Below, one piece after another: positions 730-23,003 of a stretch of 37,632 bases of DNA; position 1 is the first letter of the stretch; each line of letters begins with the position of its first letter. The stretch covers positions 183,398 to 221,029 of the forward strand of contig NZ_CADEFR010000001.1 of assembly GCF_902826655.1 (NCBI RefSeq). The letters are read 5' to 3'. A model generated the notes under the pieces. That model was not told where the DNA came from. It was given only the letters and a program-made list of their open reading frames with translations, and searched no databases. Both the position numbers and the translations under genes were made by a program. The stretch is from an uncultured Methylibium sp. Lineage in GTDB: Bacteria; Pseudomonadota; Gammaproteobacteria; Burkholderiales; Burkholderiaceae_C.

Positions 730-3306
730 CTAGCCTTCCGCGACGCGCTTCGCCAGGTGCGCGAGCGCTTCCTCGACCTGGTCGACCAGCACCAGGCACA
801 GGTCGCCGGGCTTGAGCCGCGCGAGCGCGGTGTCGATGGCGATGAACTCGCCGCGGATCTCGTCGACGTGGCGGGTGCGCGGCGCGCCGGCCAGGCCTTC
901 GCGCAGCAGCTTCATCACCTCGCCGTCGGCGCGGCCGCGCTGCGCGGCGTCCTGGTACAGCAGCACCTCGTCGAAGGCGCCGCCCAGGATCACGGTCTGC
1001 TCGCGGATGTCGTCGTCGCGCCGGTCGCCGGCCCCGCTGATGACGACCGACCGCGTCTGGCCCGGCGCGGCCGGCATCGCGTCGACCGCGGCCACCAGCG
1101 CGCGCATCGCGTCGGGGTTGTGGCCGTAGTCGGCGATCAGCGTCGCGCCCTTGTAGTCCATCACGTTGAAGCGGCCGGGCGCGTTGTCGGCGTCGTTGAC
1201 GAAGCTCGCCAGCCCGGCGCGCACCACGTCCCAGTCCAGGCCCACGCCCCAGGCGGCGGCGACCGCGGCCATCACGTTCTCGACCTGGAAGCCGATGGCG
1301 CCGTGGCGCGTGATCGGCACGTCGCGCAGCAGCACGCGCTCGCGCCAGGCGCCCTCGGCCGCGACCACCGCATCGCCCTCGACGAAGACCGCGCGCTTGC
1401 CCTGCGCACGGTGCGTCGCCATCACCGGATGGTGGCGGTCGGCGGCGAAGAAGATGATGTCGCCGGGGCAGGTGTGCGCCATGTCCGCGACGATGGGGTC
1501 GGCCGCGTTCAGCGCCGCATAGCCGTGGTCGGCGACGTTCTGCACGATCACGCGCTTGAGCACCGCCAGGTCCTCGACCGTGGTGATGTAGTTCAGGCCC
1601 AGGTGGTCGCCGCTGCCGATGTTGGTGACGACCGCCACCTCGCAGCGGTCGAAGCCCAGGCCCTCGCGCAGGACGCCGCCGCGCGCGGTCTCGAACACGG
1701 CCGCGTCGACGTCGGGGTGCATCAGCACGTTGCGTGCGCTCTTGGGGCCGCTGCAGTCGCCGCTGTCGATCTGGCGGCCCTCGACGTAGACGCCGTCGGT
1801 GTTGGTCATGCCGACGCGCAGTCCGCTGGTGGCGAACAGGTGCGCGATCAGCCGCGTGACGGTGGTCTTGCCGTTGGTGCCGGTCACCGCGACCACCGGG
1901 ATGCGGCCGTCGTCGCCGTGGTGGTAGAGGTGGCCGATGATGGACTCGCCGACGTTGCGGCCCTTGCCGTAGGACGGCGACAGGTGCATGCGCAGGCCCG
2001 GCGCGGCATTGACCTCGACGACGCCGCCGCTCTGTTCTTCCAGCGGGCGCAGCACGCTCTCGCAGACGACGTCGACACCGCAGATCTGCAGGCCCACCAT
2101 CTGCGCCGCCGCGACGGCGCGCGCCGCCACCTCGGGGTGCACGTCGTCGGTCACGTCGGTGGCGGTACCGCCGGTCGACAGGTTGGCGTTGTTGCGCAGG
2201 ATCACGCGGCGGCCCTTCTCGGGCACCGAGCCGGGCTCCAGACCCTGCACCGCCAGCCGCGCGATGGCGATCTCGTCGAAGCGGATCTTGGTCAGCGAGG
2301 TCGCGTGACCCTCGCCGCGCCGCGGGTCGGCGTTGACCAGGTCGACCAGCTCGCGCACCGTGTGCACGCCATCGCCGCTGACGTGCGGCGGATCGCGCCG
2401 CGCGGCGGCGGCCAGCTTGTCGCCGACCACCAGCAGCCGGAAGTCGTTGCCCGGCAGGTATTTCTCGACCATCACCGTGCCGATCTCGTCGGCGGCGCGG
2501 TAGGCGATCTCGAGGTGCGGTCGGTCGACGATGTTGACGGTGACGCCCTTGCCCTGGTTGCCGTCCAGCGGCTTCAGCACCACCGGCAGGCCGATCTCCT
2601 GCGCCACGGCCCAGGCTTCGTCGGGGCTGGCGACCGGCCGGCCGATCGGCACCGGCACGCCGGCCGCGCGCAGCAGGTTCTTGCTGAGGTCCTTGTCCTG
2701 GGCGATGGCCTCGGAGACCGCGCTGGTCGTGTCGACCTCGGCAGCCTGGATGCGCCGCTGGCGCGAACCCCAGCCGAACTGCACCAGGCTGCCCTGCGTC
2801 AGCCGGCGGTACGGGATGCCGCGCGCGACGGCGGCCGCGACGATGGAGCCGGTGCTGGGGCCGAGGCGCACGTCCTCGTCGGTCTCGCGCAGGCGCTTGA
2901 TCGCGGCGTCGATGTCGAAAGCCTGGCCGGTCTGCGCGGCCTCGATCAGCTCGCGCGCGATGGCGAAGGCCAGGCGACCGACCTCCTCCTCGCTGTACTC
3001 GACCACGACCTGGAAGATGCCCGGCTCGACCGTCTGCGAGGTGCGGCTGAAGGTCACCGGGCAGCCGGCCTGCGCCTGCAGGGCCAGCGCCACCGACTCC
3101 AGCACGTGCGCCAGCGCCAGCGAGCCGGTGTGACCCAGCGGCTGCAGCGCGCCGACGGCGGGGAAGAGCGCGCGCAGCCGGGCCTCGAAGGCGGCGCGAT
3201 CGGCGATCGCACATTCGGGCGTGGTGCAGGCGACGATCGCCTCGATGGCCGTGTGACGGCTCCACAGGTTGGGGCCGCGCAGCGCGCGGATGCGGGAGAC
3301 TTGCAT
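730..3306 (-). CDS. cphA: Cyanophycin synthetase CphA, full length
   Basis: 858 residues, the usual size for CphA1. Cyanophycin synthetase alternately adds Asp to the poly-Asp backbone and Arg to its side chains, using ATP. Domains in order: an N-terminal domain (about 1-160), an ATP-grasp domain (about 200-480, with KPLDGNQGKGV at 245 and VEVNAAPGLRMH near 430-441), and a Mur-ligase-like domain with an intact P-loop GTNGKTT (476-482) and a C-terminal subdomain with DYGHNP near 726-731. Both ligase sites therefore look functional. Oddity: the N-domain motif that is HxxEH in CphA1 enzymes reads HVLES here (67-71), so the second His is lost. The gene lies 46 bases after a CphA paralogue that keeps this motif but has lost the Mur site. 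Start: ATG after a weak GAG element. Confidence 0.95.
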   Translation of the reverse strand: MQVSRIRALRGPNLWSRHTAIEAIVACTTPECAIADRAAFEARLRALFPAVGALQPLGHTGSLALAHVLESVALALQAQAGCPVTFSRTSQTVEPGIFQVVVEYSEEEVGRLAFAIARELIEAAQTGQAFDIDAAIKRLRETDEDVRLGPSTGSIVAAAVARGIPYRRLTQGSLVQFGWGSRQRRIQAAEVDTTSAVSEAIAQDKDLSKNLLRAAGVPVPIGRPVASPDEAWAVAQEIGLPVVLKPLDGNQGKGVTVNIVDRPHLEIAYRAADEIGTVMVEKYLPGNDFRLLVVGDKLAAAARRDPPHVSGDGVHTVRELVDLVNADPRRGEGHATSLTKIRFDEIAIARLAVQGLEPGSVPEKGRRVILRNNANLSTGGTATDVTDDVHPEVAARAVAAAQMVGLQICGVDVVCESVLRPLEEQSGGVVEVNAAPGLRMHLSPSYGKGRNVGESIIGHLYHHGDDGRIPVVAVTGTNGKTTVTRLIAHLFATSGLRVGMTNTDGVYVEGRQIDSGDCSGPKSARNVLMHPDVDAAVFETARGGVLREGLGFDRCEVAVVTNIGSGDHLGLNYITTVEDLAVLKRVIVQNVADHGYAALNAADPIVADMAHTCPGDIIFFAADRHHPVMATHRAQGKRAVFVEGDAVVAAEGAWRERVLLRDVPITRHGAIGFQVENVMAAVAAAWGVGLDWDVVRAGLASFVNDADNAPGRFNVMDYKGATLIADYGHNPDAMRALVAAVDAMPAAPGQTRSVVISGAGDRRDDDIREQTVILGGAFDEVLLYQDAAQRGRADGEVMKLLREGLAGAPRTRHVDEIRGEFIAIDTALARLKPGDLCLVLVDQVEEALAHLAKRVAEG

Positions 3307-3352: not shown

Positions 3353-5518
3353 TCAGCGGGCCCACTTCACTTCGGGCTCGAAGGTCTCGATGCCGGCGGC
3401 GATCAGTTCGGGCGCGATGCCCAGCGCCCAGGCGGTGGCCACCGCCGCGAGCACGGTCTCGTCGGGCACCACGGCCATGCGGCCGCGGCCCAGCGCCACC
3501 GAGCCGGTCTCCATCGTGCCGGTCGCCAGCACCGCGCGGCCGTCGCGCAGGAACACGACGCGGCCGCCGGATTCGCGCTGCGCGGCCAGCGCCGCGGTGG
3601 CCGGGTCGCGGGCGTAGAGGATGACCTCGCCGTCGCACAGCTCGGCCAGGCCGGCCACGCGCTCGTCGGCCGCGTTCAGCACCGCCACGCCGTCCGACAG
3701 CACCACGTCGACCTGGGTGCGCAGCACCTTGACCAGCTGGTCGGACTCGCGCACGTCGAACTCGCCCAGGGCCTCGGCCCCGCCCAGGTCGGTGACGACG
3801 CCGACCTGGCAGCGGTCGTAGGCCAGACCGTCGCGCAGGATGGCCTCGGCGCCGTTCTCGAACACGGCCACCTCGACCTGGCGGTTGATCAGCAGGCGGT
3901 GGCCGGCGTCCCAGTGGGCGCAATCGCCGCGCTCGACCTGGCGACTGCCGAGGAAGAGCCCGTCGCGGCAGGCCAGGCCGACGTGGCGCCCGCTCAGGTG
4001 CACCAGCCAGGCCACCAGGCGTGCGACGGTGTGCGTGCCCTGCGAGCCGGCGACGCCGACGATGGGAATGCGGCCGCTCTCGTCCTCGGAGAACAGGTGG
4101 TCGACGATCGCGTGGCCGACCGGCCGCGGCACGCCCTCGGCGGGCCGCAGGTGCATCAGCAGGCCGGGGCCGGCGTTGACCTCGACCACCGCCCCGCCCT
4201 GCTGCTGCAGCGGGCGCGAGATGTCCTCGGCCACGACGTCGACGCCGGCGATGTCCAGGCCCACCACGCGCGCGGCCAGCGAGACGATGTGGTCGACCTC
4301 GGAGTGGACCTGGTCGGTGCAGTCGATCGAGACGTTGCCGTTGCGCTGGATCAGCACCTGCCGCCCGGCCTCGGGCACCGAGCCCGGCGTCAGGCCCTGG
4401 CGCTGCAGGTCGGAGACGATGGCGCCGTCCTTGTCGGCCTCGACCAGGCCCAGCGGATGGTCTTCGGTCTCGCCGCGCCGCGGGTCGTTGTTGATCTGGC
4501 TGGCCACCAGTTCCAGCACCGTGGAGCGGCCGTCGCCGGTGACCCAGGCGGTCTCGCCGCGCGCCGCCGCCACGACCTTGCCGCCGACCACCAGCAGCCG
4601 GTGCTCCTTGCCCGGCACGTAGCGCTCGACCATGACCTCGCTGCCGTTCTCGGCCGCGAAGGCGTAGGCCGCCTCGATGTCCGGCCGGCTGCGCAGGTCC
4701 AGCGTCACGCCGCGGCCGTGGTTGCCGTCGGTGGGCTTGACGGCGACCGGCAGGCCGATGTCCTCGGCCGCGGCCCAGGCCGCCTCGGCGCTGGCGACGA
4801 CCTCGCCCTCGGGGATGGGCACGCCGCAGGCCTTGAGCAGCGACTTGGTCAGGTCCTTCTCGCCGGCGATGCCCTCGGCGATGGCGCTGGTGCGGTCGGT
4901 CTCGGCGGTCCAGATGCGGCGCTGCTTGCGGCCGTGGCCCAGCTGCACCAGGTTGCCGCCGTTCAGGCGGATGTGCGGGATGCGCCGGTCGGTCGCGGCG
5001 CCGACGATGGCGGCGGTGCTGGGCCCGAAGTAGCAGGCCTCGACCTGCTCGCGCACCTGCGCCACCGCGCCGGGGACGTCGAAGCCTTCGTCGTTGATCG
5101 CCGCCATCAGCAGCCGGTGGCCCTGGGTCAGCGCCGCGCGGGCCACCTGCTCCTCGCGGGCGCGGAACACCATGCGGTAGACGCCGCGCCGGGAGGTGCT
5201 GCGGGTCTGGCCGAAGCCGGTCGGCATGCCCGACAGGTTGAGCAGTTCGATGACGACGTGCTCGAGCACGTGGCCGGACCAGGTGCCTTCCTGCAGACGC
5301 TGCAGGAAGCCGCCGCGCTCGCCGACGCCGCAGTGGTGTTCTTCCAGCGCCGGGAGCAGGCTGCAGAGCCGGCCGTTGAAGCCGGGCAGCTGGTTGGAGG
5401 GAAAGTCCTCGAGTTCGCCGAGGTCGAGCCAGGTTTCGAGTACCGGGCGATAGGTCCAGATGTTGGGACCGCGCAGGTAGTTGATGCGTAGCAGCTGAAC
5501 GTCGCTCTTCTTGCTCAT
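3353..5518 (-). CDS. cphA': CphA-like protein with degenerate, truncated Mur-ligase domain (cphA')
   Basis: 721 residues, homologous to the downstream CphA along its length but ending about 140 residues early. The N-domain carries HVLEH (H83, E86, H87), the HxxEH pattern reported as a hydrolytic, primer-making site in CphA1. The ATP-grasp domain is well kept (KPTDGNHGRGV at 261, VEVNAGPGLLMH near 445-456). The Mur-ligase P-loop is broken: where CphA has TGTNGKTT this has AGSQGTHT (490-497), without the Lys, and the C-terminal subdomain with DYGHNP is missing because the protein stops at EVKWAR. Arg ligation by this protein is therefore unlikely. Tandem cphA/cphA' pairs are known in Burkholderiales such as Cupriavidus. 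The start ATG overlaps the stop of a small upstream frame as ATGA. Confidence 0.92.
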   Translation of the reverse strand: MSKKSDVQLLRINYLRGPNIWTYRPVLETWLDLGELEDFPSNQLPGFNGRLCSLLPALEEHHCGVGERGGFLQRLQEGTWSGHVLEHVVIELLNLSGMPTGFGQTRSTSRRGVYRMVFRAREEQVARAALTQGHRLLMAAINDEGFDVPGAVAQVREQVEACYFGPSTAAIVGAATDRRIPHIRLNGGNLVQLGHGRKQRRIWTAETDRTSAIAEGIAGEKDLTKSLLKACGVPIPEGEVVASAEAAWAAAEDIGLPVAVKPTDGNHGRGVTLDLRSRPDIEAAYAFAAENGSEVMVERYVPGKEHRLLVVGGKVVAAARGETAWVTGDGRSTVLELVASQINNDPRRGETEDHPLGLVEADKDGAIVSDLQRQGLTPGSVPEAGRQVLIQRNGNVSIDCTDQVHSEVDHIVSLAARVVGLDIAGVDVVAEDISRPLQQQGGAVVEVNAGPGLLMHLRPAEGVPRPVGHAIVDHLFSEDESGRIPIVGVAGSQGTHTVARLVAWLVHLSGRHVGLACRDGLFLGSRQVERGDCAHWDAGHRLLINRQVEVAVFENGAEAILRDGLAYDRCQVGVVTDLGGAEALGEFDVRESDQLVKVLRTQVDVVLSDGVAVLNAADERVAGLAELCDGEVILYARDPATAALAAQRESGGRVVFLRDGRAVLATGTMETGSVALGRGRMAVVPDETVLAAVATAWALGIAPELIAAGIETFEPEVKWAR

Positions 5519-5709
5519 TTCTTGCGGGGGCGATGGCCCCGGGCGGCCCAGGACCGACGCACGATTGTGCGCCCGGCGGGCTCCTTGGCACCATGCTCCG
5601 GCCCGCTCTCCATGCGGCAGGCCAGTCCGGCATCGGTCAGAATCTCGGGCCCTTCCGGGGGATAGTGGCCAGCCTTGCGGGCCTTGGCAAAAAAGTCTGA
5701 ATGCATCAT
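5515..5709 (-). CDS. Possible small basic protein translationally coupled to cphA'
   Basis: A 64-residue frame starting MMHSDFFAKARKAGHYPPEG and ending in a basic tail, GHRPRKK. Its TGA overlaps the cphA' ATG as ATGA, the arrangement used for coupled genes throughout this window. An AGGA element lies about 5 bases before the chosen ATG (alternative ATGs at 5715 and 5706). Third codon positions are G or C in about three quarters of codons, as expected for coding DNA here. There is no signal peptide or membrane segment, and I recognise no family. Its start overlaps head to head with the start of the ABC transporter gene at 5701. It could instead be untranslated leader of cphA'. Presence of the frame is observed; its being a gene is inference. 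Confidence 0.5.
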   Translation of the reverse strand: MMHSDFFAKARKAGHYPPEGPEILTDAGLACRMESGPEHGAKEPAGRTIVRRSWAARGHRPRKK

Positions 5710-7971
5710 CACCATCCTGTCGACGAGGCGGCCGCCTCCGGGGCGGCCCGTGCGGCCTTGCAAGCCCGGCTTGCACCGGACGAGAACGTGCTGGCCACGT
5801 TGGAGGTTGACCTCGACGCGAAGCTGCACTTCGCGCACGGACTGCTCGCGCTGACCGACCGGCGCCTGATGGCCCTCTGTGCGGGCAGCGAACAGTGGCA
5901 GGACTGGCCTCTTGACGCCCGGCTGACACTGCGGCACGCCGACCACGGCGGGGTCGGCAGCCTCGAGCTCCACGATGATCGCGCCCGCCTCCGGCTGTGG
6001 CGCTACACGCTGGGTAACAACGTGCAAGCCTTGCGTCTGCTGCGGCAGTTCGAGCAGCTGCAGGCCCAGCGCCAGAACGGTGCGGCCGACACCGCGGCGG
6101 ACGAAGTCGCCGCCGAGCCGGAAGAGGCCAGCGGCGCCGAAGCCGAGGCCCAGCCGCCGTCGACCTGGGTGCTGCTGCGGCTGTGGCGCTTTGCCCGGCC
6201 CTACCGGCGCCAGCTGCTGGCCGGGTTTCTACTGACGCTGGCATCGACCGCGGCGACCCTGGTGCCGCCCTACCTGACCATCCCGCTGATGGACGAGGTG
6301 CTGATCCCGTTCCAGAACGGCCAGCGCATCGAACCCGGCTACGTGATGCTGCTGCTGTCGGGCCTGCTGGGCGCGGCCCTGGTGGCCTGGAGCCTGGGCT
6401 GGGCGCGCACCTGGCTGCTGGCGCTGGTGTCCGAGCGCATCGCCGCCGACCTGCGCACCGCCGCCTTCGAGCACCTGCTGCACCTCAGCCTGGACTACTT
6501 CGGCAGCAAGCGCACCGGCGACCTGATGGCGCGCATCGGCTCCGAGACCGACCGCATCAGCGTCTTCCTGTCGCTGCACGCGCTGGACTTCGCCACCGAC
6601 GTGCTGATGATCGCGATGACCTCGGCGATCCTGTTCTCGATCAACCCCTGGCTGGCGCTGGCGACGCTGCTGCCGCTGCCCTTCATCGCGTGGATGATCC
6701 ACCGCGTGCGCGACAAGCTGCGCACCGGCTTCGAGAAGATCGACCGCGTCTGGGGCGACGTGACCAACGTGCTGGCCGACGTGATCCCGGGCATCCGCGT
6801 CGTCAAGGCCTTCGCGCAGGAGCGGCGCGAGGCGGGGCGCTTCCGCGAGGCCAACAAGCTCAACCTCGCGGTCAACGACAAGCTCAACAAGACCTGGAGC
6901 CTGTTCTCGCCGACGGTGTCGCTGCTGACCGACATCGGCCTGCTGGTGGTCTGGGCCTTCGGCATCTGGCTGGTGGCGGGCGGGCAGATCACGGTGGGCG
7001 TGCTGACGGCCTTCATCGCCTACATCGGCCGCTTCTACACGCGGCTGGATTCGATGAGCCGCATCGTCAGCGTGACGCAGAAGGCGGCCGCCGGCGCCAA
7101 GCGCATCTTCGACATCCTGGACCACGTCTCCAACGTGCCCGAGCCCTCGCAACCGGTGAAGATCGAGCGGCTGCAGGGCCGCATCGAACTGAGCGAGCTG
7201 GGCTTCCGCTATGGCACGCGCACGGTGATCCGCGGCCTGGACCTGGACATCCGCCCCGGCGAGATGATCGGCCTGGTGGGTCACAGCGGCTCGGGCAAGA
7301 GCACGCTGGTGAACCTGATCTGCCGCTTCTACGACGTGACCGACGGCCGCATCTTGGTCGACGGCACCGACATCCGCCGCTTCGGCGTGGCCGACTACCG
7401 GCGCCACATCGGCCTGGTGCTGCAGGAGCCCTTCCTGTTCTTCGGCACCATCGCCGAGAACATCGCCTACGGCAAGCCCGAGGCGACGCGCGAGGAGATC
7501 GTGGCCGCCGCGCGCGCCGCGCACGCGCACGAGTTCATCCTGCGCCTGCCGCTGGGTTACGACTCGCTGGTCGGCGAGCGCGGCCAGGGCCTGTCCGGCG
7601 GCGAGCGCCAGCGCATCTCGATAGCGCGCGCGCTGCTGATCGACCCGCGCATCCTGATCCTCGACGAGGCCACCTCCTCGGTCGACACCGAGACCGAGAA
7701 GGAGATCCAGAAGGCGCTGGACAACTTGGTCCAGGGCCGCACGACGATCGCGATCGCGCACCGCCTGTCCACCTTGCGCAAGGCCGACCGGCTGGTGGTG
7801 ATGGACCGCGGCAAGGTCGTCGAGGTCGGCCCGCACGACGAACTGATGGCGCGGCGCGGCGCCTACTGGCGCTTGTATGAAGCGCAGCTGCGCCGCGTCG
7901 AGGCCGACGACGATGCCGAGCCGCCGCGCCGCGAGGCCGCGCCCTCGGCCCACACCGCCGACCTGGCCTGA
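5701..7971 (+). CDS. Cyanophycin-associated ABC transporter, fused permease and ATPase
   Basis: 756 residues. Residues 1-150 form a soluble domain (PH-like in appearance, LTDRRLMALCAGSEQW) ending in an acidic Ala/Glu linker. An exporter-type six-helix membrane domain follows at about 160-460 (first helix in RQLLAGFLLTLASTAATLV). The nucleotide-binding domain has Walker A GHSGSGKST, signature LSGGERQR, Walker B ILILDEATSSVD and the switch His in IAIAHRLST. All catalytic motifs are intact, so this is a type IV (MsbA-like) half-transporter acting as a dimer. It is divergent from the cyanophycin synthetase genes and followed by a DUF1854 gene, the setting in which this family is named cyanophycin metabolism-associated. 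The substrate is unknown. The N-terminus MHHHHP is natural; I see no clear ribosome-binding site, so the start is less certain. Confidence 0.9.
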   Translation: MHHHHPVDEAAASGAARAALQARLAPDENVLATLEVDLDAKLHFAHGLLALTDRRLMALCAGSEQWQDWPLDARLTLRHADHGGVGSLELHDDRARLRLWRYTLGNNVQALRLLRQFEQLQAQRQNGAADTAADEVAAEPEEASGAEAEAQPPSTWVLLRLWRFARPYRRQLLAGFLLTLASTAATLVPPYLTIPLMDEVLIPFQNGQRIEPGYVMLLLSGLLGAALVAWSLGWARTWLLALVSERIAADLRTAAFEHLLHLSLDYFGSKRTGDLMARIGSETDRISVFLSLHALDFATDVLMIAMTSAILFSINPWLALATLLPLPFIAWMIHRVRDKLRTGFEKIDRVWGDVTNVLADVIPGIRVVKAFAQERREAGRFREANKLNLAVNDKLNKTWSLFSPTVSLLTDIGLLVVWAFGIWLVAGGQITVGVLTAFIAYIGRFYTRLDSMSRIVSVTQKAAAGAKRIFDILDHVSNVPEPSQPVKIERLQGRIELSELGFRYGTRTVIRGLDLDIRPGEMIGLVGHSGSGKSTLVNLICRFYDVTDGRILVDGTDIRRFGVADYRRHIGLVLQEPFLFFGTIAENIAYGKPEATREEIVAAARAAHAHEFILRLPLGYDSLVGERGQGLSGGERQRISIARALLIDPRILILDEATSSVDTETEKEIQKALDNLVQGRTTIAIAHRLSTLRKADRLVVMDRGKVVEVGPHDELMARRGAYWRLYEAQLRRVEADDDAEPPRREAAPSAHTADLA

Positions 7972-9737: not shown

Positions 9738-10139
9738 ATGAAGCGCACCCTGACCCTGCTGGCCCTGATCGTCGGGGCCTCGTTCGCCACGGCGGCGACG
9801 CCCACCGACGCCCAGATCGACGCCGCGATGAAGAAGGCCGACCCGGACAACGACGGCACGCTCGATCTGAAGGAGGCGCTGAAGTTCGGCATCTCCAGGA
9901 AGGCGTTCGAGGCCGCCAACCCCGACAAGGACGGCACGCTGGACCGCAAGGAGATGCTCGCGGCGGTCACCGCGATGTTCGAGGCCGCCAATCCGGACAA
10001 GGACGGCACGCTCGACTGGAAGGAGGCGCGCAAGGCCGGCATCAAGTCGAGGAAGACCTTCGACGCGGCCAACCCCGACAAGGACGGCACGCTGGACCTC
10101 GCCGAATACCTGGTCGCGCTGACGCTGCAGGCCCGGTAG
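9738..10139 (+). CDS. Lanmodulin-like periplasmic EF-hand protein
   Basis: 133 residues, the length of Methylorubrum extorquens lanmodulin (LanM). A signal peptide (about 1-20, ending ATAA) implies a periplasmic location. Four 12-residue EF loops lie at 35-46, 61-72, 85-96 and 112-123. All have Pro at loop position 2, Asp at 3, 5 and 9, and Glu at 12; the first is DPDNDGTLDLKE. Pro at position 2 and Asp at 9 are hallmarks of LanM, which binds lanthanides picomolar-tight. Loops are 12-15 residues apart, as in LanM and unlike the longer spacing of calmodulin. Loops 2-4 begin with Asn, as does the weak fourth loop of LanM, so affinity may differ. Loop 3 has a Trp at position 10. GGAG lies 8 bases before the ATG. 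A plain calcium-binding EF-hand protein is the alternative. Confidence 0.82.
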   Translation: MKRTLTLLALIVGASFATAATPTDAQIDAAMKKADPDNDGTLDLKEALKFGISRKAFEAANPDKDGTLDRKEMLAAVTAMFEAANPDKDGTLDWKEARKAGIKSRKTFDAANPDKDGTLDLAEYLVALTLQAR

Positions 10140-10824: not shown

Positions 10825-11583
10825 TCAGGGCCCGCTCAGGCCGTGCTCGCGCCCGTAGCGCAGCAGCTCGACCGCGGTCACGACGCCCAGCGTCTGGCGG
10901 ATGCGGGTCTGGTAGTTGGCGACGGTCTTGACCGACAGCCGCAGGGTCTGCGCGATCTCGTCGACGCTCTGCCCGGCCAGCAGCTGCGTGAGGATGTCGA
11001 ACTCGCGGCTCGACAGCCGCGCGTGCGGTGGGCCGCCCGCACCCTGCGCGACCTGCAGCGCCAGCATGTCGGGCGACAGCGCGCGCTCGCCGCGGGCGGC
11101 GCGCCGCACCGCGTCGACCAGCACCTCGGGCGCGCTGCTCTTGGTCACGAAGCCGGCCGCACCGGCGCGCAGGCACTGGTCCAGCATCGCGGCGCTCTCG
11201 TGCATCGTGAAGACCAGCACCGGCAGCTCGGGCCGGCGCAGCGTCAGGCGGCGCAGCAGCTCCAGGCCGCTGCGGCCGGGCATCGACAGGTCCAGCACCA
11301 GCAGGTCGGGCAGCTCGTGCGACGCGCCGCCGTTGCACAGCGCGCTGTAGGCGCTGTCGGCGTCGCCGTACTCGGCCACCACGGCCATGTCGGCCTCCAG
11401 CTCCAGCAGCCGCCGGTAGCCGGCGCGCACCACGGCGTGATCGTCGGCCAGCGCGACGCGCAGCGGCGCGCCCTCGCGGCCTTCGACGCGCAGCGGCGCG
11501 CTCGGGCTGCCTTCGACGCGCAGCGGCGCGCCGAATGAAGAGTCCACACGCGGCGTCGTACGCACAGCAGTCATCGTGTTCAT
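10825..11583 (-). CDS. NarL/LuxR-family response regulator
   Basis: 252 residues. A 10-residue unit, APLRVEG plus three variable residues, is repeated at the N-terminus before the real receiver strand APLRVALADDH. The receiver domain has the acidic pair DD, the phosphoacceptor Asp in LLVLDLSMPG, Thr in VLVFTMHES and Lys in GFVTKSSAP. A LuxR-type helix-turn-helix follows (LSSREFDILTQLLAGQSVDE to VKTVANYQTRI). Its ATG overlaps the stop of the kinase gene (TGATG), so the pair is coupled. NarL-type regulators of this kind control alcohol-dehydrogenase and lanthanide-switch genes in some bacteria (for example PedR2), but the target here is inferred only from neighbours: lanmodulin-like protein and TonB receptor. 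A second ATG at 11574 is possible. Confidence 0.92.
   Translation of the reverse strand: MNTMTAVRTTPRVDSSFGAPLRVEGSPSAPLRVEGREGAPLRVALADDHAVVRAGYRRLLELEADMAVVAEYGDADSAYSALCNGGASHELPDLLVLDLSMPGRSGLELLRRLTLRRPELPVLVFTMHESAAMLDQCLRAGAAGFVTKSSAPEVLVDAVRRAARGERALSPDMLALQVAQGAGGPPHARLSSREFDILTQLLAGQSVDEIAQTLRLSVKTVANYQTRIRQTLGVVTAVELLRYGREHGLSGP
11461..11532. repeat. 30-base tandem repeat inside the response-regulator gene
   Basis: Two full 30-base units (11461-11490 and 11491-11520) and a 12-base partial third, each starting CAGCGGCGCG and ending CTTCGACGCG in the full units. The period is ten codons, so the frame is kept. The result is an N-terminal extension that copies the first beta strand of the receiver domain. 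Confidence 0.85.
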
Positions 11584-13106
11584 CAGGATCCGGAAGTCGT
11601 GTTGTAGCGCAACAGGGCCTGCAGGCGCAGCCCCGGGGATGCCGGGCGCTGCGGCCGCGCGGGCTGGCAGTCGAGATCGCCGCCGGCCGCCCACACGCGC
11701 TCCTTGATGCCGGCCAGGCCGTTGCCGCGCTGCCAGACGCCGGGATGGTCGAGGCCGCAGCCGTCGTCCTCGACCGACCAGTGCAGCATGCCGCCGCCGT
11801 CGACCGGCTGGATGTGCACGCGCAGCGTCGCCTCGGCGGCGCGCGCGTGGCGCGCCACATTGGTCAGCGCTTCCTGGCTGATGCGGTAGACCGCCAGCAC
11901 CAGCTCGCGCGGCAGCCGTGCGTCGTGGTCCAGGCCGGCGATGTCGAACTGCAGCCGGTAGTGCGTGGTCTGGCCCGGCGACTGGGCCCAGGCCCGGACC
12001 AGGTTGTCCAGCAGGCTGCGCAGGCGCTCGACGTCCTCGGCATCGTGCCCCGCCTCGTCGTCCGGCGCGCCGGCCAGCGGCCGCAGGCGCGTCAGCAGCG
12101 CGCGCACTTCCTGCTGGATGCGTTCGCACTGCCCGCTCATGCCGGCCACCACGGCGGCCAGCTCGGGCTGGTCGGCCAGCCGGCGCTGCAGCCACGCGGC
12201 GTCGACGCGCAGCGCGGTGAGGTGCTGGCCGAACTCGTCGTGCAGCTCGCGCGCGAGGCGGCTGCGTTCGTCCTCCTGCAGCGTCAGCACCTGGGCAGCG
12301 AGCTGGCGGCGCTGCGCCTCGGCCTGCTCCAGGGCCCCGGCCAGGTGGCGCAGTGCATTGGCGATGGCATCGAGCTCGCGGATCGGCATCGCCGGCAGCG
12401 CACGCACCGCCGACACGTCCTGCTGCTCGACCCGTGCGATCGCCGACAGCAGCGGCGCCAGCGGGCGGAACGAGCGCTTCAGGTGCCAGCGCATCACCAG
12501 CAGCATCACGCCGCCGCAGCCCGCCACCAGCACCAGCATGTCCAGCAGCTGGGCCATGGCTTCGCGCTGCTCGGCGTCGTGCGATGCGACCCACTGCGCC
12601 TGCCACGGCAGGCCGTCCGGCCGCGGCAGCACGATGCCGACGGTGCGGTCGGCCGGCGGCGCGAACAGCACGCCGTTGAGCGCCACCAGGGCCCGCAGCG
12701 GCCACGACGGCGGCGGCTCGACCGGCGGCTCCAGGCGCACGCGGCCGGTCGCGTCGATCAGCCGCAGCTCGAGGTGACGCGGCCCGTCGTCGTGGCCGAC
12801 CGCCTGCAGCGCCGCCACCAGCTCGTCGTCGCTGCGCACCTGGGCGGCGACCAGCAGCGCGTTGGTGCGCGCCTGCGCCAGTGCGCCGGCCAGCTCGTCG
12901 CGCATGTCCTCGCGGGCGCGCCACAGGCCCAGCAGCAACGCCAGCACCAGCGCGGCCGCGACCACCGCCAGGGCGCCGCGCATCACCAGGCGCGGCAGGT
13001 CCATCGGCGCGGCCGCCGCCGGGACCGGCGCGGTCAGGTCGGGAGTTTTTCCCGGAGGGACTGGCACGTCCATCGCAACAGAATCGGCGCCCTTTGCGAA
13101 GTTCAT
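11583..13106 (-). CDS. NarL-type sensor histidine kinase with periplasmic domain
   Basis: 507 residues from the ATG at 13106; ATGs at 13073 and 13004 are alternatives, and 13004 would start right at the first membrane segment. Membrane helices at about 44-62 and 185-205 flank a periplasmic domain of about 120 residues. A HAMP-like linker, a coiled coil and a HisKA_3 motif follow, with the phospho-His in LARELHDEFGQHL, and then a HATPase domain (ISQEALTNVARHA, VEDDGCGL, GNGLAGIKERV). The periplasmic part loosely resembles the LapD/MoxY N-terminal family, whose kinase members regulate methanol oxidation; I hold this at low confidence. The gene is coupled to the response regulator by TGATG and divergent from the TonB receptor. 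The signal sensed is unknown; a metal ion is plausible from context. Confidence 0.88.
   Translation of the reverse strand: MNFAKGADSVAMDVPVPPGKTPDLTAPVPAAAAPMDLPRLVMRGALAVVAAALVLALLLGLWRAREDMRDELAGALAQARTNALLVAAQVRSDDELVAALQAVGHDDGPRHLELRLIDATGRVRLEPPVEPPPSWPLRALVALNGVLFAPPADRTVGIVLPRPDGLPWQAQWVASHDAEQREAMAQLLDMLVLVAGCGGVMLLVMRWHLKRSFRPLAPLLSAIARVEQQDVSAVRALPAMPIRELDAIANALRHLAGALEQAEAQRRQLAAQVLTLQEDERSRLARELHDEFGQHLTALRVDAAWLQRRLADQPELAAVVAGMSGQCERIQQEVRALLTRLRPLAGAPDDEAGHDAEDVERLRSLLDNLVRAWAQSPGQTTHYRLQFDIAGLDHDARLPRELVLAVYRISQEALTNVARHARAAEATLRVHIQPVDGGGMLHWSVEDDGCGLDHPGVWQRGNGLAGIKERVWAAGGDLDCQPARPQRPASPGLRLQALLRYNTTSGS
13040..13054. promoter_or_regulatory. Second CGGGA-N5-TCCCG palindrome, kinase/receptor region
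   Basis: CGGGA-GTTTT-TCCCG, with the same half-sites and 5-base spacing as at 9666-9680. It lies 105 bases before the TonB-receptor ATG. It falls inside the kinase frame if that starts at 13106, or 36 bases upstream of it if the kinase starts at 13004. This is a candidate operator for the adjacent LuxR-type regulator. Confidence 0.4.
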
Positions 13107-13158
13107 GACGCGACGTTCATGGCGCAAGGTTCATCAGAAGAATATGAGGAGACTCGGA

Positions 13159-15519
13159 ATGACACGCTCTGCACGATCGACCGCCGTTGGGTTCCGGCAG
13201 CGCCCGCGCCTCGCGGGACCCGCACTATCGCCGCTGTCCCGCGCCTTGCGCGCGATCGGCGCGCTAGGGCTTCCCCTGATCGCGATGCACGGTGGAGCAG
13301 TTGCACAGACTGCTCCGGCGCAGCAACTCGAGCGCGTCGAGGTCATCGGTGTTTCCCCGCTGCCCGGCCAGGGCATCGACCGCAACCTGCTGCCCTACTC
13401 GACCCAGCTCATCAAGCGCGACCGCATCGACGAGGCGCAGGCGCAGAACCAGGTCGACTACCTGAACCGCCGCGTGCCGGGCGTGCAGGTCAACGACATC
13501 CAGGGCAGCCCCTTCCAGGGCGACCTGACCTACCGGGGCTTTCGCGCGTCGCCGCTGATCGGCGCCGGCCAGGGCCTGTCGGTCTACCTGGACGGCGTGC
13601 GCATCAACGAGCCCTTCGGCGACGTCGTCAACTTCGACCTCGTGCCCGAGTTCGCGGTCAGCAGCATCGCGCTGGTCCCGGGCGCGAACCCGGCCTTCGG
13701 CCTCAACTCGCTGGGCGGCGCGCTCGCCTACACCACGCACGACGGCCGCAGCGCGCCGGGCCTGCGCGGCGAGATCTCCGGCGGCAGCTTCGGCCGCAAG
13801 CGCTTCGACCTGAGCTGGGGCCACAGCAGCGACAGCGGCTGGCACCAGTACGTCGCCGCCACCGCCTTCGACGAGAAGGGCTGGCGCGACTTCTCCGACG
13901 GCCGGCTCGGCCAGTTCCTCGGCAAGTTCGGCCACGACAACGGCACGACCAGCTGGAGCGTCGGCCTGCTGCTCGGCAGCAGCAAGCTGGTGGGCAACGG
14001 CCTGTTGCCGGCCTACACCATCGACGAGGGCGAGCTGACCGAGGACCTGTACTTCAACCGCCGCCAGGCGGTCTACACCCACCCCGACCAGACCAAGAAC
14101 CAGCTGGGCCAGCTGGGCTTCAACTTCCAGCACGCCGTCGACGCCAACAGCTCGATCTCCGCGCTGGCCTACGTGCGCAAGAGCAAGCGCGACACCATCA
14201 ACGGCGACGAGGCCGAGGAAGAACCGGTGCTGCCGGACGATCCGAACGCCGCGTTCAACACCACCAGCACACGCCAGACCGGCTACGGCGCGGCGATCAG
14301 CTTCGCGCGCGCCAGCGGTGCCCACCAGTGGCAGGTCGGCGCCAGTGTCGACATGGCGCGGGTGCGCTACCGCCAGCTCGAGCAGGAAGGCTTCTTCACC
14401 GACACCCGCGGCGTGGTCGCCGAGGAAGGCGAGGACCCCGAGCTGTCGGCCAACGTCGAAGGCAAGTCGACGAGCTTCGGCCTCTACCTGACCGACACCT
14501 GGCAGGTCGGTGCGCGCACCCACGTCACCGGCACGGCGCGCTACAACCGCTCGACGGTCAGCAACACGCTGACCACGCGCGACGACGACACCGACGAGAT
14601 CGAGACCAAGCCGCGCGAGCGCTTCACCTACAACAGCATCAACCCGGCGCTCGGCATCGCGCACCGGCTCGGCGAGGCGGTGACGACGCCGACGATCTTC
14701 GCCAACGTCGCGCGCAACACCCGCGTGCCGACCGTCATCGAACTCGGTTGCGCCGACCCCGAGGAGCCCTGCCGCCTGCCGGCCGGCCTGCAGGCCGATC
14801 CCTTCCTCGAGCAGGTCAAGTCGACGACGATCGAGGCCGGACTGCGCTGGCCGTTCGCGCCGGGCAAGCGCTTCAGCATCGAGGCCTACCGCACGGTGAA
14901 CAAGGACGACATCCTGTTCCGCAGCACCAGCGTGACCGGCCAGCTCGGCTACTTCGCCAACTTCCCGAAGACGCGCAACCAGGGCGTCGACACCGAACTG
15001 GCGGTGAGCGCAGGCGCTGTCGACTTCGGCATCGGCTACAGCTACCTCGAGGCCACCTACCAGGCCGACGGCGTGCTGCGCCAGGGCGAGCGCAACGTCA
15101 CGATCACGCCGGGCACGCGCATCGCCGGCCTGCCGCGCCACACGCTCAAGCTGGCGCTCGACTGGCGCCTCGGCGGCGGCTTCAGCGTCGGTGCCGACAC
15201 GCAGACGGTCGGCAGCCGCGGCGTCTCGGGCAACGAGGACGGCCTGCTCGAGGACGGCGCGACCGGCGACGAGGTGCGCACGCTCAAGATCCCGAGCTAC
15301 ACGCTGCTGAACCTGCGCGCGAGCTGGAAGCCCGGCAAGCAGTGGGAGTTCTACCTGAACGTCAACAACGTGACCGACAAGCGCTACGAGACCTTCGGCG
15401 CGCTGGCCGAAACGGTGTTCACGCCGACCGGCGCCTACGCCGGCGACGAGGCAGACGCGCTGTTCGTCGCGCCGGGCGCGCGGCGCTCGGTGTTCGCCGG
15501 ACTGCGCTTCAAATTCTGA
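13159..15519 (+). CDS. TonB-dependent outer-membrane receptor with acidic loops
   Basis: 786 residues. A long basic, then hydrophobic leader ends near AVAQTAPA (signal peptide), followed by a TonB-box-like ERVEVIGV, a plug domain (IQGSPFQGDLTYRGFRASP, VYLDGVRINEPFGD) and a 22-strand-type barrel ending in Phe. Such receptors import metal chelates, cobalamin or carbohydrates using TonB energy. Several presumed extracellular loops are strongly acidic (GDEAEEEPVLPDD, AEEGEDPE, RDDDTDE), and one has a Cys pair (CADPEEPC). Start: ATG at 13159, served by AGGAGA at 13146-13151; an ATG at 13144 would contain that ribosome-binding site. The two-component system is divergent and a terminator follows. 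The substrate is unknown; a lanthanide or metal chelate is an inference from the neighbouring lanmodulin-like gene. Confidence 0.93.
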   Translation: MTRSARSTAVGFRQRPRLAGPALSPLSRALRAIGALGLPLIAMHGGAVAQTAPAQQLERVEVIGVSPLPGQGIDRNLLPYSTQLIKRDRIDEAQAQNQVDYLNRRVPGVQVNDIQGSPFQGDLTYRGFRASPLIGAGQGLSVYLDGVRINEPFGDVVNFDLVPEFAVSSIALVPGANPAFGLNSLGGALAYTTHDGRSAPGLRGEISGGSFGRKRFDLSWGHSSDSGWHQYVAATAFDEKGWRDFSDGRLGQFLGKFGHDNGTTSWSVGLLLGSSKLVGNGLLPAYTIDEGELTEDLYFNRRQAVYTHPDQTKNQLGQLGFNFQHAVDANSSISALAYVRKSKRDTINGDEAEEEPVLPDDPNAAFNTTSTRQTGYGAAISFARASGAHQWQVGASVDMARVRYRQLEQEGFFTDTRGVVAEEGEDPELSANVEGKSTSFGLYLTDTWQVGARTHVTGTARYNRSTVSNTLTTRDDDTDEIETKPRERFTYNSINPALGIAHRLGEAVTTPTIFANVARNTRVPTVIELGCADPEEPCRLPAGLQADPFLEQVKSTTIEAGLRWPFAPGKRFSIEAYRTVNKDDILFRSTSVTGQLGYFANFPKTRNQGVDTELAVSAGAVDFGIGYSYLEATYQADGVLRQGERNVTITPGTRIAGLPRHTLKLALDWRLGGGFSVGADTQTVGSRGVSGNEDGLLEDGATGDEVRTLKIPSYTLLNLRASWKPGKQWEFYLNVNNVTDKRYETFGALAETVFTPTGAYAGDEADALFVAPGARRSVFAGLRFKF

Positions 15520-15620: not shown

Positions 15621-15695
15621 CATGCTTTGGCACAGCACGCCCCGTCGGCCCGTCCCGTGACGCGCTGCACCTCGGCAACACGGGATGGCGCCGGC

Positions 15696-15711
15696 GGGAA
15701 CGCCGCTTGCT
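15696..15711 (+). promoter_or_regulatory. Candidate sigma-54 promoter of the RFAP-synthase/mtdB/mch operon
   Basis: GGGAACGCCGCTTGCT matches TGGCACGN4TTGCW at 10 of 12 defined positions, with GG and GC exactly 12 bases apart (15697-98 and 15709-10). The predicted transcript starts near 15722, about 30 bases before the first ATG. The match was found by eye. Confidence 0.45.
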
Positions 15712-15753
15712 CCCTGCGTGTTTCCTGCCCCGGCGCCCCGCGACCCGTTCCCG

Positions 15754-16782
15754 ATGCTCATGACCCCTCCGACCCCGCTGCGACCTGCGCTCGACCGTGC
15801 GGTCGGCGTGCATGCGCCGGGTCGCCTGCACCTGGGCTTCCTCGACCCCTCCGGCTCGCTGGGCCGGCGCTTCGGCAGCCTGGGTCTGGTGATCGACGGT
15901 GTCGAGACGGCGCTGACGCTGCGCGCTGCCGCACGCCAGCAGGTCGAGGTCGCGGTCCCCGATGCCGACGGCGCTGCCGCTGACGCCGACCGCGCCGCGA
16001 GCTACCTCGCCACGCTGCAGCGCGCGACCGGCTGCGACACGCCGCTGCAGTTGCGGCTGCTGTCGCTGCTGCCGGCGCATGCCGGCTTCGGCTCGGGCAC
16101 GCAGCTCGCGCTGGCGGTCGGCCGGGCCTTCGCGCAGCTGCACGGTCTGGATCTCACGACGCGCCAGATCGCGCAACTGCTGGGCCGCGGCCTGCGCTCG
16201 GGCGTCGGCATCGCCGGCTTCGACCAGGGCGGCCTGCTGCTCGACGGCGGGCCGAGCGAGGACGGCCGTCCGGCGCCGCTGCTGTCGCGCGTCGAACTGC
16301 CGGCCGACTGGCGCGTGCTGCTGATCCTCGACCCGTTGCGCCAGGGCTTGAGCGGCGGCGACGAGAAGAGCGCGATCGCCGCGCTGCCGCGCTTTGCGCA
16401 GGCCGATGCCGCGGCGATCTGCCACGAGGTGCTGATGCGCGTGCTGCCCGGCGCAGCGACCGGCGACTTCGCGTCCTTCGCCGCCGGCGTCAGCCGCGTG
16501 CAGCAGCTGGTCGGCTCGCATTTCGCGCCGGCGCAGGCCGGCCGCGTCTACGCCAGCGCCGCGGTCGAGCGCGTCTGCGACTGGATCGCGCAGCAGGTCG
16601 AGACCGGCATCGGCCAGAGCTCCTGGGGCCCGACCGGCTTCGCGTTCCTGCCGTCGGCCGAGGCCGCCGAGGCACTGGCCGCCCGCGCCCGCGCGGCCGG
16701 CATCGTCGACCCGGCGCTGCGGCTTCAGGTCGCAGCGCCTCGCGCCACGGGGGCGCTGGTCACGAGCCAGCCCGCCCGCTGA
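15754..16782 (+). CDS. Beta-ribofuranosylaminobenzene 5'-phosphate (beta-RFAP) synthase
   Basis: 342 residues of the GHMP-kinase-like family. The enzyme condenses 4-aminobenzoate with phosphoribosyl pyrophosphate, losing CO2 and pyrophosphate, the first committed step of H4MPT synthesis. Visible signatures: HAPGRLHLGFLD near the N-terminus, the Gly-rich loop LPAHAGFGSGTQLALAVG, LGRGLRSGVGIAGFDQGG, and QSSWGPTGFAFL near the C-terminus, all typical of bacterial beta-RFAP synthases. It heads the operon with mtdB and mch. ATGs at 15754 and 15760 are both possible; an upstream ATG at 15685 would put the start before the predicted sigma-54 transcript start and is less likely. Confidence 0.93.
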   Translation: MLMTPPTPLRPALDRAVGVHAPGRLHLGFLDPSGSLGRRFGSLGLVIDGVETALTLRAAARQQVEVAVPDADGAAADADRAASYLATLQRATGCDTPLQLRLLSLLPAHAGFGSGTQLALAVGRAFAQLHGLDLTTRQIAQLLGRGLRSGVGIAGFDQGGLLLDGGPSEDGRPAPLLSRVELPADWRVLLILDPLRQGLSGGDEKSAIAALPRFAQADAAAICHEVLMRVLPGAATGDFASFAAGVSRVQQLVGSHFAPAQAGRVYASAAVERVCDWIAQQVETGIGQSSWGPTGFAFLPSAEAAEALAARARAAGIVDPALRLQVAAPRATGALVTSQPAR

Positions 16783-16826
16783 CGCCCTTCCCTTTCCCCT
16801 CCCCCGACCCGATGGAAGCCACCGCG

Positions 16827-17732
16827 ATGGACCGCCCCTACATCCTCCACATGTTCACGCCGGGCAAGCAGATGAGCCCGTTCGACATCAATATGGCGGC
16901 CGACGCCGGCTACCAGATCCTGCCGACCTACAGCGAGGTGACGCTCGAGGGCGTGACCGGCCTGACGCAGGACGCGATCTTCTCGCGCGGGCCCAAGGGC
17001 GTGGCGCGCACCGGCATCTTCATCGGCGGGCGCGACGTGATGCTCGCGGCCGACATGCTGGACACGGCGCGCAAGGCGATGGTCAAGCCCTTCGTCGTGT
17101 CGGTGATGGCGGACCCGAGCGGGTCCTACACCACCGCCGCGGCGATGGTCGCCTGCGTCGAGGCGCAGCTGCGCAAGGTGCACGGCACCGACCTGGCCGG
17201 CAAGCGTGTCGTGATCCTCGGCGGCACCGGCACCGTGGGCCGCATCGCCGGCGTGCTGGCGCAGCAGCTCGGCGCCGAGGTGCGCCTGTCCAGCCGCCAG
17301 GGCGTCGAGGCCGCGCAGCACGCCGCCGACGAGACCAACGTGCGCTTCGGCAGCGCGATGAGCGGCGTGTCGGGCAAGGGCGTGGACGCGATCCGCGCGT
17401 CGATCGCCGACGCCGACGTGGTGCTGGGCACCGCCGCCGCCGGCGTGCAGGTGCTGAACGAGCAGGACCGCCTGTGCGCGACACGCATGCTGGTGGCGGC
17501 CGACGTGAATGCCGTGCCGCCCGAAGGCATCGCCGGGGTCGGCGTGATGGACAGCGGCAAGCTGCTTTCGGGCAGCAAGGCGGTGGGCATCGGCGCGCTG
17601 GCGATCGGCAACGTCAAGTACCAGACCCAGCACCGGCTGCTGGTGCGCATGCAGGAATCGGACAAGCCGATCTACCTGAGCTTCCCCGAGGCCCTGGCGG
17701 TCGCGCGCGAGGTGCTCTCCGAAAGCCCCTGA
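16827..17732 (+). CDS. mtdB: NAD(P)-dependent methylene-H4MPT dehydrogenase
   Basis: 301 residues. MtdB oxidises methylene-H4MPT to methenyl-H4MPT with NAD+ or NADP+. The N-terminus DRPYILHMFTPGKQMSPFD and the stretch GLTQDAIFSRGPKGVARTGI match known MtdB closely. A Rossmann motif follows in VVILGGTGTVGRIAG, then VVAADVNAVPPEGI and VGIGALAIGNVKYQTQHRL. I chose the ATG at 16827 because GGAAG lies 8 bases before it and homologues start here; an in-frame ATG at 16812 would add five residues. The gene sits 44 bases after the RFAP synthase, and the next gene starts on the base after its stop. Confidence 0.95.
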   Translation: MDRPYILHMFTPGKQMSPFDINMAADAGYQILPTYSEVTLEGVTGLTQDAIFSRGPKGVARTGIFIGGRDVMLAADMLDTARKAMVKPFVVSVMADPSGSYTTAAAMVACVEAQLRKVHGTDLAGKRVVILGGTGTVGRIAGVLAQQLGAEVRLSSRQGVEAAQHAADETNVRFGSAMSGVSGKGVDAIRASIADADVVLGTAAAGVQVLNEQDRLCATRMLVAADVNAVPPEGIAGVGVMDSGKLLSGSKAVGIGALAIGNVKYQTQHRLLVRMQESDKPIYLSFPEALAVAREVLSESP

Positions 17733-18866
17733 ATGAGCGCGACGCTGGTCGTCGCCGGCCGCTCGGCGCGGTGGATGGCCGAGGCTGCCGCGCGCGACGG
17801 CTGCGAGGTGATCGCGCTCGACGTGTTCGGCGATGCCGACACGCGGCGCGCGGCACGGCGCTGGGTCGACGTCGGCGATGCCGCCTTGCGCATCGACGCG
17901 GCGCGCCTGCTGCCGGCCCTGGCCGAAGCGGCGCAGGACCGCGGCGTGATCGGCTGGATGGCCGGCAGCGACTTCGAGTGCGAACCCGCGCTGCTCGCGA
18001 GCGCCGCGGCGCAGTTGCCGTTGCTCGGCACGGCGCCCGACGCGGTGGCTCGCGTGCGCGATCCCGCCCGGTTCTTCGCGGCGCTGGACGCACTCGGCCT
18101 GCCGCATCCCGAGGTGGCCGACGCGCCCCCGGCCGATCCGCGCGGCTGGCTGCTCAAGGATGCACTTGGCACCGGCGGCTGGCACATCCGCCGCGCCGAC
18201 GATCCGCACCCGGCCGATGCCGCGCGCCGGCCCTACTGGCAACGCGAGTCGGCGGGGCAGCCGATGTCGGCGCTCTTCATCGCGGCGGCCGACGGCGTGC
18301 AGCTCGTCGGCTTCAATGCGCTGATCGTGCGGCCGCTCGGTGTGCATCCGCATGTCTATCGAGGCGCGATCGGCCCGCTGCAGTTGCCCGTCAAGGTCGA
18401 GGCTCCGCTGCGCGACGCCATCGCCCGGCTGGCCGCGCGCTTCGCGCTGCGCGGCCTGGCCAGCCTCGACTTCCTGCTGGACGGCGAGCACTGGACGCTG
18501 CTCGAGATCAACCCCCGCGCCTCCGCCAGCATGGCGCTGTACGCCGAGCGGCCGCTGGTGCGCGCGCATCTCGCGGCCTGTCGCGGCGATGCGCCGGTCG
18601 CCGTCGAAGGCGCCGGCGGCCCGGGCACGACGCGTGGCCACGAGATCGTCTTCGCCCGCCAGGCCTTCCGCCTGAGCCCCGCGCAGGCCACGATGCTGGC
18701 CGAGGCCGGCGACTGCCACGACCTGCCGGCTGCCGGCACCGCCTTCGCCGCCGGCGACCCGGTGTGCAGCATCGGCGCGCTGGGGAACAATGCCGACGCG
18801 GTCCGTGCCGCGCTGGCGAGCCGGCGCCAGGCGCTGCGCGACACGCTGACTCCGAAACCCGTTTGA
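17733..18866 (+). CDS. ATP-grasp protein of the H4MPT/methylofuran island
   Basis: 377 residues. Its start ATG directly follows the mtdB stop. The ATP-grasp fold is indicated by the central lysine segment PRGWLLKDALGTGGWHIR and the metal-binding end FLLDGEHWTLLEINPRASASM. It belongs to the predicted ATP-dependent carboligase group found in methylotroph C1 islands and methanogens (the group I associate with COG2232). ATP-grasp enzymes join a carboxylate to an amine or thiol via an acyl phosphate. The acceptor here is unknown; formation of a peptide-like bond in methylofuran or H4MPT synthesis is the contextual guess. No membrane segment or signal peptide is seen. Confidence 0.85.
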   Translation: MSATLVVAGRSARWMAEAAARDGCEVIALDVFGDADTRRAARRWVDVGDAALRIDAARLLPALAEAAQDRGVIGWMAGSDFECEPALLASAAAQLPLLGTAPDAVARVRDPARFFAALDALGLPHPEVADAPPADPRGWLLKDALGTGGWHIRRADDPHPADAARRPYWQRESAGQPMSALFIAAADGVQLVGFNALIVRPLGVHPHVYRGAIGPLQLPVKVEAPLRDAIARLAARFALRGLASLDFLLDGEHWTLLEINPRASASMALYAERPLVRAHLAACRGDAPVAVEGAGGPGTTRGHEIVFARQAFRLSPAQATMLAEAGDCHDLPAAGTAFAAGDPVCSIGALGNNADAVRAALASRRQALRDTLTPKPV

Positions 18867-18886
18867 ATGAACTGCGAGAGAGCGCC

Positions 18887-19921: not shown

Positions 19922-19934
19922 TCAGCTGGCCGCG

Positions 19935-21730: not shown

Positions 21731-21826
21731 TTGCGCCGCTGGCATGGAACGTGTAAGTTCAGTGAAGTACTGGCAACGCGCCCAGTGCTTTCCCTTCCTC
21801 AGCAGAACTGCACACGGAGACTCACC

Positions 21827-22336: not shown

Positions 22337-22390
22337 GGCGCCGGCGGTGTCCGGCGTGCCGTAGCGCGCCGGCTTGCACACCGAAACGAG

Positions 22391-22421: not shown

Positions 22422-22434
22422 GCATGGGCGCCGT

Positions 22435-22992: not shown

Positions 22993-23003
22993 TGCCAGAT
23001 TTT

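Follow-up and report, generated by a model that had tools for sequence, protein, structure and literature searches.

A probable lanmodulin homologue with an apparently shifted EF-hand order in XoxF-bearing Burkholderiales

We analysed a 37,632-nucleotide stretch of DNA from an uncultured Methylibium sp. (contig NZ_CADEFR010000001.1, positions 183,398 to 221,029 of the forward strand; hereafter the window), and we focused on one small gene at positions 9738–10139 on the + strand. This soil bacterium carries genes for methanol use, and the gene product is a small protein, apparently secreted, that resembles lanmodulin (LanM), the benchmark for lanthanide recognition in biology and for the recovery of rare earths. 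LanM responds to lanthanides at picomolar concentrations and is ~10^8-fold selective for them over Ca2+. We read the window protein as an exported (periplasmic) lanthanide-binding EF-hand protein that would be homologous to LanM with its EF order shifted by one, and we place the probability of this reading at about 0.7. The wider Burkholderiales family of such LanM-homologous, register-shifted proteins most probably consists of periplasmic lanthanide binders serving XoxF. The basis was the sequence family, the linker order, the genome context and the co-occurrence with XoxF, from which we infer the periplasmic site, EF pairing, metal identity, affinity and role.

Translation of 9738–10139 gave 133 residues followed by a stop. 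The N-terminus, MKRTLTLLALIVGASFATA-A, was judged by eye to be like a Sec signal peptide; the putative peptide spans approximately residues 1–19 (9738–9794), and the first 20 residues had a low predicted local distance difference test (pLDDT) score. Loop EF1 is DPDNDGTLDLKE (9840–9875), followed by a 14-residue linker with a helix break at FGIS (9876–9917), loop EF2, NPDKDGTLDRKE (9918–9953), a 12-residue linker forming a single continuous helix and closest to the LanM EF3-EF4 linker (9954–9989), loop EF3, NPDKDGTLDWKE (9990–10025), a 15-residue linker with a helix break at AGIK (10026–10070), and loop EF4, NPDKDGTLDLAE (10071–10106), all on the + strand. The loops were taken from the translation, the lengths of the two long linkers from spacing counts, and their helix breaks from an AlphaFold2 model. 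The initial annotation had reported Pro2, Asp9 and Glu12 in all four loops, Asn1 in three of them, and a total length equal to that of LanM; translation confirmed the loop residues, with Asn1 in EF2–4, and the length is that of the Methylorubrum extorquens protein (Mex-LanM). Across 11 full-length proteins of this kind, described below, Asn1 and Pro2 of EF2 and EF3 were invariant, as was Asp9 across EF2–4, and EF4 carried Asn1 in 10/11 and Pro2 in 11/11. EF1 was the least conserved loop in the clade alignment (Pro2 in 7/11, Asp9 in 3/11). Because EF1 varied while EF2–4 were near-invariant, we considered EF2–4 the conserved sites.

LanM was the nearest characterised family by sequence. The window protein matched Pfam EF-hand_1 (E 8.6e-20), and its best family was the NCBIfam LanM model NF053806 (E 3.4e-28, 98.3 bits). 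This score is under the equivalog cut-off of 135 bits, and four relatives scored 78.9–90.1 bits; all five canonical LanMs, three alphaproteobacterial and two from Burkholderiales, passed the model at 141.9–181.6 bits. The top sequence matches in the PDB were Mex-LanM (8fns, 1.3e-26; 6mi5, 1.7e-26), phmmer gave 32.8 bits against Hans-LanM of Hansschlegelia quercus, and the XopAW calcium-binding family NF041410 gave 19.6 bits against a cut-off of 120. The protein also has four EF hands, fewer than 200 residues and at least one pair less than 14 residues apart, which is the LanM search rule of PMC10232371, and Pro2, a LanM criterion when present in at least one EF hand, occurs in 4/4 loops. Judged on sequence, the match to LanM exceeds chance. 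The protein probably works like LanM.

The likeness had limits. PMC10232371 places adjacent EF hands of LanM 12–13 residues apart, and in the window protein (14, 12, 15) only the middle pair fits. The initial annotation had offered a spacing of 12–15 residues as part of a LanM signature; the range was right, but as a signature it failed, because LanM has 12–13 and the long-short-long order is reversed. Its claim of a LanM-like identity likewise stood for the nearest family and fell for plain LanM, given the score and the shifted register. Because it lacks the hallmark spacing and scores below the NCBI threshold, we did not file the protein as LanM. The different order of loop spacing, 14-12-15 versus 12-13-12, is a visible structural reason for the low score, which itself suggests that model-based annotation would miss the family.

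Relatives were sought by scanning genome contigs, and locus counts refer to the best 80 of 104 loci. The close kind comprised 12 genomes (L003–L013 and the window) with 11 full-length proteins, L013 being cut by a contig end. Records L003–L013 were titled Methylibium, Variovorax, Rhodoferax, Azohydromonas, or unclassified Burkholderiales, Pseudomonadota and Proteobacteria metagenome-assembled genomes. Identity to the window protein was 61–67% over the alignment, and best-segment identity in the 11 other genomes was 61–75%. The spacing 14-12-15 was found in 12/12 (in L011, with a degenerate first loop, from pairwise alignment). The remaining 68 loci had alphaproteobacterial titles, except one titled Frankia, and 66 of them showed 12-13-12; L064 had three scored loops (13-12) and L030 was unscored by motif. 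The exception, L079 (Frankia sp. RB7), encodes a Bradyrhizobium-type LanM, so that its title is probably wrong or its assembly mixed.

Alignment-based AlphaFold2 models were compared. That of the window protein (pLDDT 88.5) showed helix breaks in both long linkers and a continuous helix at residues 70–84 between EF2 and EF3, whereas the alphaproteobacterial LanM of L021 (pLDDT 81.2) had continuous helices at EF1-EF2 and EF3-EF4 and a break at EF2-EF3. For comparison with the three-helix LanM fold, Foldseek TM scores to 8fns were 0.40/0.49, for a metal-free model and with sequential aligners that are blind to permutation. In LanM, EF2 is paired with EF3, and EF1 with EF4 (PMC10232371); thus, moving the chain ends into the first LanM helix gives the order of the window protein.

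In a cyclic-cut test, the 11 full proteins were aligned to every cyclic cut of 17 alphaproteobacterial LanMs and two Burkholderiales LanMs. Against the former, the mean score peaked at 182 for a cut mid first helix, compared to 157 uncut and 158 for a second-helix cut; against the latter, the values were 201, 164 and 189, respectively. As a control, Burkholderiales LanMs against alphaproteobacterial LanMs peaked uncut at 294. A shift of one EF hand was preferred in 190/209 pairs. The mean difference was positive in each of six scoring schemes, and the shift was favoured in 143–168 of 187 alphaproteobacterial and 24–32 of 33 Burkholderiales pairs. HMMER with the NCBI LanM model aligned L003, L005 and L009 one EF hand out of register. 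Linker residues were compared with those of 9 of the 17 alphaproteobacterial LanMs and three Burkholderiales LanMs. As predicted by a shift, linker 2 was closest to LanM linker 3 (z 4.3 alphaproteobacterial, 3.4 Burkholderiales) and linker 1 to Burkholderiales LanM linker 2 (z 3.4). Linker 3 was mixed (z 3.0 to alphaproteobacterial linker 1, 2.9 to Burkholderiales linker 2), so that EF4 could be either the moved old EF1 or a new copy. EF1-EF2-EF3 of the window protein would correspond to EF2-EF3-EF4 of LanM, and the shift may have arisen by circular permutation, or because the first EF hand was lost and another was gained at the end. That the protein is a naturally permuted LanM with its lanthanide selectivity intact is a tentative proposal, for which we put the odds a little below even.

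Homology was weighed against convergence. Small two-EF proteins whose linker is 14 residues long are numerous in Burkholderiales, and proteins with 14-23-14 spacing also occur; these are a possible independent source. An exported calcium-binding protein could have come from these by doubling and shortening, its LanM likeness being convergent; the identical 14-residue linker length agrees with such an origin, as do the best VIA-align rows, which were canonical EF pairs. In Foldseek, 8fns and a chain of a plant calcium kinase shared the lowest E-value (1.6e-4). In contrast to what convergence predicts, when EF-linker-EF units were placed in a tree (63 rows, 55 columns), the family plus LanM separated from generic EF proteins with support of 100/96, and the same separation was found without the loop columns (31 columns, 100/98). 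The 12-residue helix also resembles LanM linker 3, Pro2 is present in EF2–4 of 11/11 full-length proteins, and XoxF occurs in 12/12 carrier genomes. We therefore regard a convergent calcium protein as unlikely and homology with LanM as likely. The initial annotation had proposed a LanM profile search and a tree, and both came out on its side: LanM was the best family, though with a score under the cut-off, and the EF units grouped with LanM, not with generic exported EF-hand proteins.

Matches of XoxF type, at 81–100% identity, were present in 12/12 carrier genomes (G446 and G289, both in this count, appear to be one genome). In the window genome, contig C116 encodes an N-terminal fragment that is XoxF-like and C69 a C-terminal fragment of a pyrroloquinoline quinone (PQQ) dehydrogenase, and there are two further PQQ dehydrogenases. 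In PQQ dehydrogenases, the second Asp of a D-x-D motif marks lanthanide enzymes; the three window-genome sequences that include this region read WDFDG, YDHDG and WDFDG. The close kind was found in 5/399 evenly sampled genomes of the family (E 1e-50 or better), and all five were among the 44/399 that had XoxF. Three of the five belonged to one genus, in which XoxF was present in 6/6 sampled genomes. The next matches in the family were partial ones in two carrier genomes and the LanM-type proteins of G301 and G059, at ~1e-22, followed by generic EF proteins from 1e-11. In 399 genomes of the order, only the window's own protein stood out, and the third LanM-type protein, that of G466, came from this sample. 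Within Variovorax, 4/101 genomes carried the close kind, all of them among the 28/101 with XoxF, and these were four of the five genomes with an 86–87% XoxF type. A methanol study reports xoxF in 28/34 Comamonadaceae genera (PMC7065363), which is broader than the threshold used here gives. In the window genome, the kind was represented by one gene alone, and a two-EF gene was distantly related (39% identity). A partial second copy was also seen in the Proteobacteria metagenome-assembled genome, at L187 5825–5998 (G051 C76:25809–25997) and also as L068 and L098, with the last two EF hands as its recognisable part. This copy adjoins a PQQ dehydrogenase with a WDYDG motif (L148).

Several results weigh against a register-shifted, XoxF-serving LanM homologue. 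The alignment pairs are not independent, and linker length supplies much of the shift signal. Linker 1 scored z 1.3 against alphaproteobacterial linker 2, below linkers 1 and 3 (1.7 and 2.0), which a shift does not predict. The unit trees rest on few columns (55 or 31) and came with a long-branch warning. G059 has a LanM-type protein with no close XoxF match, so the link between LanM and XoxF is not strict. A regulator, kinase and TonB receptor like those beside the window gene were not found in the available flanks of L003, L004, L006, L007 and L011. Lastly, the default profile alignment was in register, with gaps, and the window protein (P0001) and L010 aligned in register to the NCBI LanM model. 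These alignments, together with the 19/209 pairs that were in-register, would suit an ordinary LanM with lengthened linkers and no shift, in which EF1–4 correspond one-to-one. We judged this very improbable, because the spacing order was reversed in 12/12, the continuous helix was placed differently in the two AlphaFold2 models, and most pairs, and the mean under every scoring scheme, favoured a shift.

The meaning of Asn1 for metal affinity was also considered. The initial annotation had taken Asn1 as the mark of a weak site in LanM, and this did not hold in general: Hans-LanM has Asn1 with Glu9 in EF1–3 and apparent dissociation constants of 68 pM (La) and 91 pM (Nd) (PMC10232371). It did hold for EF4 of Mex-LanM, which has Asn1 and Asp9 and is weak, and which N108D strengthens (PMC11561317). 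Because Asn1 is tight in Hans-LanM with Glu9 but weak in Mex-LanM EF4 with Asp9, the affinity of the window protein is not predictable from it.

The window setting is a methylotrophy neighbourhood. After the gene, and a glyoxalase, come a LuxR-type response regulator (10825–11538, −) and a HisKA_3 sensor histidine kinase (11583–13109, −; start not settled). They are followed by a TonB-dependent receptor (12865–15519, +; start probably over-extended), a beta-ribofuranosylaminobenzene 5'-phosphate (beta-RFAP) synthase family protein for tetrahydromethanopterin (H4MPT) synthesis (15685–16782, +; TIGR00144 above cut-off), a methylene-H4MPT dehydrogenase-like protein (16812–17732, +; Pfam Mpt_N 7e-36, no NCBIfam match), and mch, the methenyl-H4MPT cyclohydrolase (18962–19921, +; TIGR03120 above cut-off). 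The tetrahydromethanopterin-linked C1 genes extend over 15685–27954 and comprise the beta-RFAP synthase, the Mpt_N dehydrogenase, ATP-grasp, mch, an MptN-like ligase, and CitG-like, FolB-like, DUF6513 and DUF447 genes. Elsewhere in the window were two cyanophycin-synthetase-like open reading frames (733–3306 and 3356–6244, −) and a CphA-associated ABC transporter (5701–7971, +; NF052233, 1384.6 bits).

Parts of this neighbourhood recurred. The regulator, kinase and receptor were found near the gene in L010 (68, 48 and 63% identity to those of the window) and in L009 (40, 35 and 34%). L012 was flanked by a kinase, a regulator and two PQQ dehydrogenases; L005 had weaker regulator and kinase matches 4–6 kb away and, on its contig, XoxF at a distance of ~15 kb; L008 had two TonB matches 6–10 kb away; and the L013 flank was too short for comparison. 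A similar genomic place is filled by a canonical LanM in G301: a PQQ dehydrogenase lies on either side of it, a regulator is present, and ~4 kb off is a TonB receptor whose 438 available residues show 61% identity to that of the window. In G466, a regulator, kinase and PQQ dehydrogenase are near the LanM-type gene. A PQQ dehydrogenase was in the flank of 56/68 alphaproteobacterial loci, many of them only ~40% identical to XoxF, and the M. extorquens lanM is grouped with a TonB transporter gene (PMC7391723). The recurrence in the window, L009 and L010 would also fit a lanthanide-responsive partner of the adjacent kinase or receptor, instead of a XoxF buffer or shuttle. We give this a small chance, as five loci had none of the three genes in their available flanks.

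For the XoxF-serving reading, we propose the following working. The neighbouring TonB receptor would import Ln3+, which would bind at the conserved NPDxDGTLD sites of EF2–4 and fold the protein. The EF hands would pair as sequence neighbours round one central helix, EF1 with EF2 and EF3 with EF4, instead of EF2/3 and EF1/4 as in LanM. The bound Ln3+ could then be buffered, or handed to the XoxF-type methanol dehydrogenase encoded in all 12 genomes, and control of these genes together may lie with the adjacent two-component system.

PMC10232371 treats the EF pairing and 12–13 spacing as hallmarks of LanM, and homologues whose linkers come in the opposite order provide a natural experiment on what lanthanide selectivity requires. 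If a permutant that keeps selectivity is true, selectivity resides in the loops and short spacing, not in the unusual LanM pairing; the LanM fold could then be re-cut, which bears on the design of sensors and rare-earth separation. The protein is also a candidate lanthanide carrier for XoxF-bearing Burkholderiales, which, in the methanol study noted above, deserve retesting for lanthanide-dependent growth (PMC7065363). None of the titles and abstract openings listed for the lanmodulin literature named a shifted form, with subscription journals and supplements outside this search, and some proteins of the close kind may be among the 696 LanM sequences of PMC10232371. LanM in betaproteobacteria was already known. 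The initial annotation had called LanM best known from alphaproteobacteria. The host is indeed betaproteobacterial, but LanM is reported from the betaproteobacterium Derxia lacustris (PMC12482762), and we found three Burkholderiales LanM-type proteins with LanM-type 12-14-12 spacing: L086 (G059), L109/L185 (G301) and L169/L186 (G466). A four-EF protein in L164 (G542), with spacing 14-9-13 and a signal-like start, adds another arrangement with short linkers to those seen in the order.

Compared to known systems, the window protein shares with Mex-LanM (NF053806; 8fns, 6mi5) four xPDxDGTxDxxE loops, 133 residues, a signal-like N-terminus, short linkers and a TonB receptor gene in the vicinity. 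It differs in spacing (14-12-15 instead of 12-13-12), in the exchange of continuous-helix and broken linkers, in the Asn that begins EF2–4, and in its score under the LanM model cut-off. Hans-LanM (8dq2, 8fnr) likewise has Asn1 in 3/4 loops, but it has Glu9, and Pro2 in 1/3 loops aligned, where the window protein has Asp9 and Pro2. The Burkholderiales LanM-type proteins (G301, G059, G466 and Derxia lacustris) share the 14-residue broken linker, with the GIS motif in G301 and G059, and, in G301 and G466, the proximity of a regulator and a PQQ dehydrogenase; in contrast, their spacing is 12-14-12, G301 and G059 exceed the NCBI LanM cut-off, and G059 is without a close XoxF. The Burkholderiales exported EF proteins (14 or 14-23-14) have 14-residue linkers and EF pairs in common with the window protein, but they are without Pro2 in the loops listed and without the 12-residue helix, and they stand separate in the unit trees.
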